This document shows positions 56,908 to 57,953 of a stretch of 64,000 nt of DNA, piece by piece. This DNA comes from Polynucleobacter sp. MWH-UH2A (lineage in GTDB: Bacteria; Pseudomonadota; Gammaproteobacteria; Burkholderiales; Burkholderiaceae). The stretch spans positions 992,001 to 1,056,000 of the forward strand of contig NZ_CP061321.1 of the NCBI RefSeq assembly GCF_018687195.1. Direction: 5' to 3'. Position 1 is the first letter of the stretch; each line of letters opens with the position of its first letter. The notes beneath the pieces are model-generated. The model had not been told where the DNA came from and searched no databases. It saw only the letters and a list, made by a program, of their open reading frames with translations. The translations under genes and the position numbers were made by a program.

Positions 56908-57429
56908 TTAACTATTTTGCAAAACAGATTTAGCTAATAACAAGTCTTGCCAAAGCGAGGCCTTCTCTTGCGGCTTATTAACGACTTGCGCCAGGTCTTG
57001 CGATGCCACTACCGGAATCTCATCATCGTTACCGGTATTTAAGGCCAGTATGGTTTCACGCAATTGAGGCAAAAGATCTCGTTCACCCGTGATCTTTTGC
57101 GCAGCCGGACCTCCAAAGGCAACCGCAATAACAGGCAAACCATCCTCTGGTAATTTCAACTGAGATAAATCATCGGCCGGAAGTCTCCATGACCATTCAT
57201 GAGATGACAAACCCAAAACCTTGATCACATTCTGAAACAAAAGCTGAGCATCACCCTGCGGCTTAGATCCAAAAAACCACCAATGTGAACGAGGGGAAGG
57301 CTCGCTGTCTTGTGGCACTGAGGCTTCAGGTGAAGCTTCTGGTGCAAGCACAGAAGACGCAGTGGTATCACGGGACACCCACTCTGTGATTCCCATTTCC
57401 TTTAGATAGCTTGCGTGTGTATGGCTCAT
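56908..57429 (-). CDS. Cysteine-free uracil-DNA-glycosylase-like / HolD-like protein
   Basis: 173 aa, start ATGA-overlapped with the rimI stop. No characterised family is certain. Residues 8-20 (Y-L-K-E-M-G-I-T-E-W-V-S-R) resemble the DnaX-binding N-terminus of E. coli psi (HolD). A Pro/Ser/Glu linker (about 21-46) precedes a domain with W-W-F-F-G, I-A-V-A-F-G-G-P-A-A-Q and I-P-V-V ... K-A-S-L-W-Q-D-L-L-L-A, patterns like type-4 uracil-DNA glycosylases. It has no Cys, so no 4Fe-4S cluster. The catalytic G-E-A-P-G is G-S-K-P-Q and the H-P-S/A motif is Q-D-L-A. Catalysis is therefore unlikely; a clamp-loader role is inference. Confidence 0.6.
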   Translation of the reverse strand: MSHTHASYLKEMGITEWVSRDTTASSVLAPEASPEASVPQDSEPSPRSHWWFFGSKPQGDAQLLFQNVIKVLGLSSHEWSWRLPADDLSQLKLPEDGLPVIAVAFGGPAAQKITGERDLLPQLRETILALNTGNDDEIPVVASQDLAQVVNKPQEKASLWQDLLLAKSVLQNS

Positions 57430-57953
57430 GGCTCTAGCTTAATGGATTTTGCCATCACAATTGCATCTTCACGAATACCTGTCTCTTGACTGGCTGGGTA
57501 GTAGCCTTTACGAAGACCGATCTGCTCAAAGCCTAGTTTTTGATATAAAGACAATGCCGGCTCATTAGTAGGTCGCACTTCTAAAATAATTCGAGGCATT
57601 TTTTGTTGAGCCGCAACCCCTTCAATTGCCTCCATCATGCGAGCGCCCAACCCTAGCTTTCTTAATTCGGGTGAGACAGTAATATTCAGAAGATGAAGCT
57701 CATCTACCGCAGGATACAGAATGCAGTAGGCCCATAGGGCCTGAGAATCCAGAAAGGTACCCGGAACTTCTTCATCTTTACTAAGGCTTGGTCTAATGCA
57801 ATATGCCCAATGCGCGGCGGCCAATGAGTCAGAGAAATTTCCCCTGGTCCAAGGATGTAAGTGAGAAACGGCCTCAATCGCTAATACAGCATCTAAATCA
57901 GTTAGCTGCATTGGCATAAAAGAAAGCTCAGCCACGTCTTTTGGGCTTGTCAT
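57426..57953 (-). CDS. rimI: Ribosomal protein S18 alanine N-acetyltransferase
   Basis: 175-aa GNAT acetyltransferase. The substrate-side H-P-W-T-R-G-N-F and the acetyl-CoA loop L-R-K-L-G-L-G-A-R-M-M, with L-E-V-R-P-T-N-x-P-A-L-x-L-Y-x-K-L-G-F, are the RimI signature. A roughly 20-residue insert (about 54-72) lengthens it compared with E. coli. Two bases after tsaB, four-base overlap with the next gene, so one operon. Confidence 0.93.
   Translation of the reverse strand: MTSPKDVAELSFMPMQLTDLDAVLAIEAVSHLHPWTRGNFSDSLAAAHWAYCIRPSLSKDEEVPGTFLDSQALWAYCILYPAVDELHLLNITVSPELRKLGLGARMMEAIEGVAAQQKMPRIILEVRPTNEPALSLYQKLGFEQIGLRKGYYPASQETGIREDAIVMAKSIKLEP

Follow-up and report, generated by a model that had tools for sequence, protein, structure and literature searches.

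A psi-like protein encoded beside rimI in Polynucleobacter, a probable clamp-loader subunit of glycosylase descent

The 173-residue protein encoded next to rimI in Polynucleobacter sp. MWH-UH2A is probably the psi subunit (HolD) of the clamp loader, descended from a family-4 (Fe-S) uracil-DNA glycosylase (UDG4) that occupied the same slot and already bore a psi-type N-terminal peptide. A probability of about 0.83 is given to this reading, which is based on sequence comparisons and a predicted structure. The window, i.e., the whole stretch of 64,000 nucleotides that was analysed, belongs to a genome made of a single 2.02-Mb contig. The psi-like gene starts with ATG, and its product, devoid of cysteine, begins with MSHTHASYLKEMGITEWVSRD and continues with a Pro/Ser-rich linker and a body containing VAFGGPAAQ and, further on, VVNKPQEKASLWQDL. 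A preliminary description of this DNA had reported a cysteine-free frame of 173 residues with a HolD-like N-terminus, a Pro/Ser linker and a domain with FGGPAAQ, all of which are seen in the translated reading frame. Downstream lies a convergent gene for a 439-aa lplT-like transporter. The features of the locus are as follows.

56908..57429, minus strand: psi-like (HolD-like) gene, probably UDG4-derived, 173 aa; reading frame with a PF03603 match above cut-off, the sole such match in the genome, found in 96 of 96 good-quality genus genomes
57370..57408, minus strand: N-terminal psi-type peptide YLKEMGITEWVSR, residues 8-20, predicted DnaX-collar-binding element; invariant residues, genus profile against E. 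coli psi residues 8-22, and the role of the E. coli peptide (PMC3290774, PMC11253446)
57292..57366, minus strand: disordered Pro/Ser/Glu linker, residues 22-46; pLDDT below 50 at residues 19-43, mean column identity 0.25
56911..57291, minus strand: putative decayed UDG4/psi alpha-beta domain, residues 47-173; AlphaFold2 pLDDT mostly above 84, fold matches to UDG4 (Z 12.1) and E. coli psi (Z 8.6), body-only hhalign 97-98% to slot UDG4s
56980..57021, minus strand: degenerate UDG motif B, residues 137-150, IPVVASQDLAQVVN replacing VPVIVTYHPAYLLR; alignment with slot UDG4s and with deep genus members keeping YHPEHLL
56917..56973, minus strand: C-terminal helix, residues 153-171, with K156, W160 and D162 invariant and KxxxWxDL common to UDG4 and psi; conservation, AlphaFold2 model and alignment
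57426..57953, minus strand: rimI (N-acetyltransferase), overlapping the psi-like gene by 4 bases; reading frame, homology to E. coli RimI and TIGR01575
57956..58684, minus strand: tsaB, upstream partner in the tsaB-rimI-psi/UDG4 arrangement; reading frame, homology

Psi signatures are recovered by profile methods. Indeed, the Pfam psi model (PF03603, DNA_III_psi) matches residues 5-162 with 26.8 bits for a gathering threshold of 22.2, it matches the 57 genus members scanned without exception (at E 0.01), and its search of the host genome returned no other intact holD, whose presence elsewhere had been raised as a point to verify. The cut-offs of the NCBIfam psi equivalogs (PRK06100, PRK06856, TIGR00664), models covering narrower psi subgroups, are far from being reached (18.8 versus 189 bits), and the protein is therefore not filed under them. 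When a profile of 18 genus members was compared with all PDB chain sequences, residues 8-22 of E. coli psi were matched by profile residues 6-20 and family-4 UDG/UdgX chains by profile residues 92-154, the one further match being unrelated (E 1.4). This link came from the genus profile only, as a single-sequence phmmer search of the PDB chains with the window protein gave nothing meaningful; likewise, searching with that protein alone retrieves relatives in the genus only, which hides the link to UDG4.

The protein shares with E. coli psi an LxxMGIxxW peptide, a flexible linker and a small alpha/beta domain ending with KxxxWxxL, as well as a location beside rimI and a chi gene in the same genome. 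The E. coli HolD sequence elements given in the preliminary description (MTSRRDWQLQQLGITQW and, later, ALWQQI) were confirmed, and E. coli holD does overlap rimI. Both systems differ in gene order, since holD precedes rimI in E. coli whereas the psi-like gene lies downstream in the order tsaB-rimI-gene, and in the body, which is nearer to UDG4 in Polynucleobacter than in E. coli psi. By its description, the cryptic psi of Pseudomonas aeruginosa is also comparable, being a longer psi with a disordered N-terminal part, and its binding of ssDNA fits descent from a DNA glycosylase (PMC3197488). Four features expected of a psi protein are found together here: the PF03603 score, the LxxMGIxxW peptide followed by a disordered linker, the psi fold in the AlphaFold2 model, and chi encoded in a genome with no other psi.

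The second homology is to family-4 UDGs. The TIGR00758 model gives the window protein a weak match (residues 99-170, E 0.0087, 15.8 bits for a cut-off of 125.3) but recognizes 16 of 18 diverse genus members, with a best value of 8e-10 among the deep ones. After removal of the peptide, hhalign relates core genus members to slot UDG4s with 97-98% and deep members with 99%, the corresponding values against E. coli-type psi being 70% and 87%, while controls (RimI, TsaB, HolC, reversed UDG) do not exceed 5%. On these comparisons, the body is clearly homologous to the slot family-4 UDGs and probably homologous to E. coli-type psi. Compared directly, the E. coli-type psi body and UDG4 reach 13% only, hardly above noise, so that it takes this genus to connect the two families. 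Profile similarity to both HolD and UDG families, proposed beforehand as a check, is thus present with PF03603, TIGR00758, the genus profile and hhalign alike.

The fold predicted by AlphaFold2 from a 57-sequence alignment agrees with this dual relationship (mean pLDDT 80.6, mostly above 84 per ten-residue block in the body, residues 19-43 disordered). Its best PDB match is the family-4 UDG 4zbx/4zby (Z 12.1, rmsd 2.6-2.7, 123 aligned residues), followed by UdgX (Z about 10), E. coli psi 3sxu_B (Z 8.6, 95 of 102 residues) and then human TDG. With Foldseek, 34 UDG4/UdgX chains come first, then the psi chains 1em8 and 3sxu with probabilities of 0.99-1.00 (1.00 for 1em8_B), and then unrelated folds. 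The comparison of a model with the psi structure, suggested earlier, therefore yields a predicted fold matching both psi and UDG4. Family-4 UDGs (TIGR00758; TthUDGa 1ui0, StoUDG 4zby) share the overall fold (Z 11-12), the strand order and a recognizable C-terminal half, but they have four Fe-S cysteines, motif A (GEAPG) and motif B (HPAYLL), which are lost or deleted in the psi-like protein. The UDG4-like UdgX of Mycobacterium smegmatis differs in being catalytic, in binding covalently to uracil-DNA and in being devoid of the psi peptide.

The decay of the glycosylase can be followed in the alignment with slot UDG4s, where deletions have removed the CxxC region and the segment bearing the remaining pair of cysteines, only GSKPQ is left of motif A (GEAPG..ED..GEPF), and VASQDLAQV stands in place of motif B (VTYHPAYLL). 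None of the family-4 hallmarks sought in the protein (Fe-S cysteines, GExPG, HPxYLL) is kept. Within the genus, motif B survives only in deep-branching members, which keep VLTYHPEHLL..KPxDKAKTWQDL, so that graded intermediates exist. No family-4 UDG is found in the host genome, whose other UDG is a family-1 Ung with GQDPYH (G000:C1:129660-130172, L384); because this enzyme is retained, the loss of UDG4 activity could be tolerable. The preliminary description had proposed an inactivated glycosylase acting as a possible betaproteobacterial psi, a predicted role supported by the dual homology, the lost motifs, the kept peptide and the presence of chi. A separate case of decay is seen in a strongly reduced 0.5-Mb genome without chi or intact UDG4 (G035), where a degenerate slot protein with the peptide LNEIGINPIW adjoins tsaB (L038, 1285-1923, minus strand).

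A relative of the psi-like gene is found in 118 of 121 genus genomes and in each of the 96 of good quality, one of which (G084) has it in broken form. Among 57 genus sequences, L9, M12, G13 and W17 of the peptide are invariant, as are W50, G106, R124, K156, W160, D162, L163 and A166 of the body, and mean column identity is 0.82 in the peptide, 0.25 in the linker and 0.66 in the body. Between species, nonsynonymous differences are low in the peptide and the body and high in the linker; synonymous sites are saturated, and for this reason no dN/dS ratio is given. Judging from this pattern, the gene encodes a functional protein with a free linker and is under purifying selection. The genome G084, a complete Polynucleobacter genome of 1.66 Mb, has both rimI and the psi-like gene broken (L008, L009), a second fragment of the latter elsewhere in the chromosome and an intact chi, so the gene appears dispensable under genome reduction. 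In another Polynucleobacter locus (L277, 2501-3022), a TAA occurs three codons early, a harmless shortening.

A partner expected for psi is also encoded. Chi (HolC, PF04364) occurs in all 41 relatives and in 119 of 143 class genomes, and the host chi keeps the equivalents of F64 and R128 (SFVPH and RERYKAYR in E. coli, DFLPH and RERYKAYR here), residues important in E. coli for psi and for SSB, respectively (PMC9826845). E. coli psi inserts its N-terminus into the DnaX collar, with a 20-fold gain in DNA affinity (PMC11253446). Among UDG4-type slots, the peptide is present in 67 and absent from 11 with chi, versus 1 and 3 without chi (p 0.015), an association that is suggestive only and loses significance once degenerate slots are included (p 0.07). 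Chi-less genomes are mixed, and some keep a peptide-bearing slot protein.

This last observation bears on another explanation, according to which the protein, as a glycosylase without activity, has been retained for some other task on DNA, e.g., as a uracil or damage sensor, the peptide serving only for recruitment and the protein being a DnaX passenger instead of a chi-binding psi. In two chi-less genomes (G035, G251), a degenerate slot protein with the peptide does persist; likeness to psi is strongest in the peptide, the body resembling UDG4 more than psi, and P. aeruginosa psi binds ssDNA (PMC3197488). However, motif A and both cysteine regions, which form the uracil/DNA pocket, are deleted here, the Pfam psi match extends well beyond the peptide, and chi with its psi-contact Phe is present in a genome with no other psi. 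A sensor or passenger role is thus considered unlikely.

As the Pfam psi model is a poor class-wide detector, matching 19 of 274 genomes and missing most slot proteins, the slot was surveyed from rimI, using 110 rimI loci, each from a different family of the class; other genome samples were one per family or genus. The class is taken as the GTDB Gammaproteobacteria with the beta lineages inside, as inferred from the genomes with an E. coli-like HolD in it. The gene beside rimI is UDG4-like in 82 loci; both catalytic motifs are kept in 72 of these and the peptide is carried by 68, and nine further loci encode short, psi-like, peptide-bearing proteins. In the remaining 19, the neighbour is neither UDG4-like nor motif-bearing under the rules used, and these include a few further psi-like proteins (L212; possibly L125, L233 and L249) as well as unrelated genes. 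Outside the beta lineages, the slot gene precedes rimI, as does E. coli holD, which overlaps it. The Pfam psi model itself matches the N-terminus of intact UDG4s (e.g., L083-L085), passing the cut-off when the rest of the frame is counted.

In the Burkholderiaceae sample, each of the 30 best family-4 UDGs carries an L-x-x-[LMF]-[GN]-[LIV]-x-x-x-W N-terminal peptide followed by a Pro/Ala-rich linker, and most of these enzymes sit in a tsaB-rimI-UDG4 arrangement. A family-4 UDG in this slot in other betaproteobacteria had been put forward beforehand and is indeed found in other Burkholderiaceae; the synteny survey proposed at the same time extends the slot UDG4/psi beside rimI across the class. 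Besides slot, peptide, linker and homologous body, which they share with the Polynucleobacter protein, rimI-linked UDG4s of most Gammaproteobacteria differ from it by the catalytic motifs, both present in most survey cases, and by at least five cysteines in Burkholderiaceae. They are probably the ancestral form. Since slot UDG4s across most of the class carry the peptide, the Polynucleobacter gene would have inherited it and not acquired it. The idea of this gene as an evolutionary link between UDG and HolD is supported, but the preliminary description had missed that the peptide already stands on intact-looking slot UDG4s.

Two side observations concern the peptide elsewhere. A 2.0-Mb Burkholderiaceae genome without chi (G019, L166) has a UDG4 starting with YLKILDVTNYKL, in which the Gly and Trp of the peptide are lost. 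A Trp-less look-alike, YLR[EQR]IGV.TP, starts family-4 UDGs of a non-gamma, probably alphaproteobacterial lineage of the same phylum (those checked all fall under family code f223; loci L351, L352, L355, L356, L358-L363, L365, L366, L371, L374, L375, L377 and L378). No rimI lies within about 1.5 kb of them; from their sequences, they could be a psi counterpart in lineages having chi but no known psi.

Could the psi-like N-terminus result from convergence or chance, as a generic short linear motif on a decaying UDG4 pseudo-enzyme? The peptide indeed spans only about 13 residues, and the sequence after it is of low complexity. Yet the strict pattern occurs in 85 of 109 slot N-termini for a shuffling expectation of 0.025, the peptide is seen in none of the 18 non-slot family-4 UDG loci from genomes of the Burkholderiaceae sample, against all 30 slot enzymes there (Fisher p 1e-13), the genomic slot is that of E. 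coli holD, the peptide is invariant while the linker is free, and the low nonsynonymous change in peptide and body indicates that the gene is not freely decaying. Coincidence is accordingly regarded as highly improbable.

A further reading is the gain of a psi gene from a gammaproteobacterium, replacing the slot family-4 UDG. In its favour, the peptide, with LGITEW, is spaced as in E. coli psi and gamma UDG4s, whereas Burkholderiaceae UDG4s are one residue longer there (LGIGPVW). Moreover, a tree built from 63 bodies, slot proteins and controls together, sets slot UDG4s apart from non-slot ones (support 98/89) but is unable to position Polynucleobacter among the slot proteins, as long branches meet. 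Against such a transfer, the order tsaB-rimI-gene is of the Burkholderiaceae type and not that of gamma holD-rimI, and deep genus bodies are still UDG4-like (TIGR00758 8e-10; hhalign 99%), more than E. coli-type psi. Horizontal replacement is thus judged improbable, and vertical descent from the slot UDG4 is preferred.

Under this descent, the rimI slot of the common ancestor would have contained a family-4 UDG fitted with a clamp-loader peptide. Most lineages would have retained it as an enzyme, while the E. coli lineage, Polynucleobacter and some others (e.g., L038) would each, on their own, have reduced it to an inert psi. Most simply, E. coli psi then arose from this ancestral protein independently and decayed further. 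In Polynucleobacter, residues 8-20 would dock on the DnaX collar, the flexible linker would give reach, and the decayed glycosylase body would hold chi, which in turn would contact SSB. The protein would link the clamp loader to SSB-coated DNA at the fork, as E. coli psi does, tethering and stabilising the clamp loader without glycosylase activity and leaving uracil removal to the family-1 Ung.

In a 2012 review, chi is known in alpha-, beta- and gammaproteobacteria and psi in gammaproteobacteria only, and two options are posed: either psi has become too divergent to be recognized, or tau is bound by chi without an intermediary (PMC3290774). Psi sequences are likewise not findable in several chi-bearing genomes (PMC3197488). 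No paper tying psi or holD to uracil-DNA glycosylases was found in the open-licence literature. The psi-like gene and its slot relatives offer a concrete, testable answer on the missing psi in the beta lineages and most gamma families, and psi, a core replisome subunit of unexplained origin, would gain a DNA-repair-enzyme ancestor with surviving intermediates. From the slot comparisons, it is somewhat probable that, in most Gammaproteobacteria, beta lineages included, an apparently active Fe-S UDG tethered to DnaX by the psi peptide fills the psi position, with E. coli and Polynucleobacter psi as independent decayed descendants. If so, the replisome would contain its own means of excising or sensing uracil; and should the slot UDG4s prove able both to bind DnaX and to excise uracil, many bacteria would have base-excision repair physically incorporated in their clamp loader.
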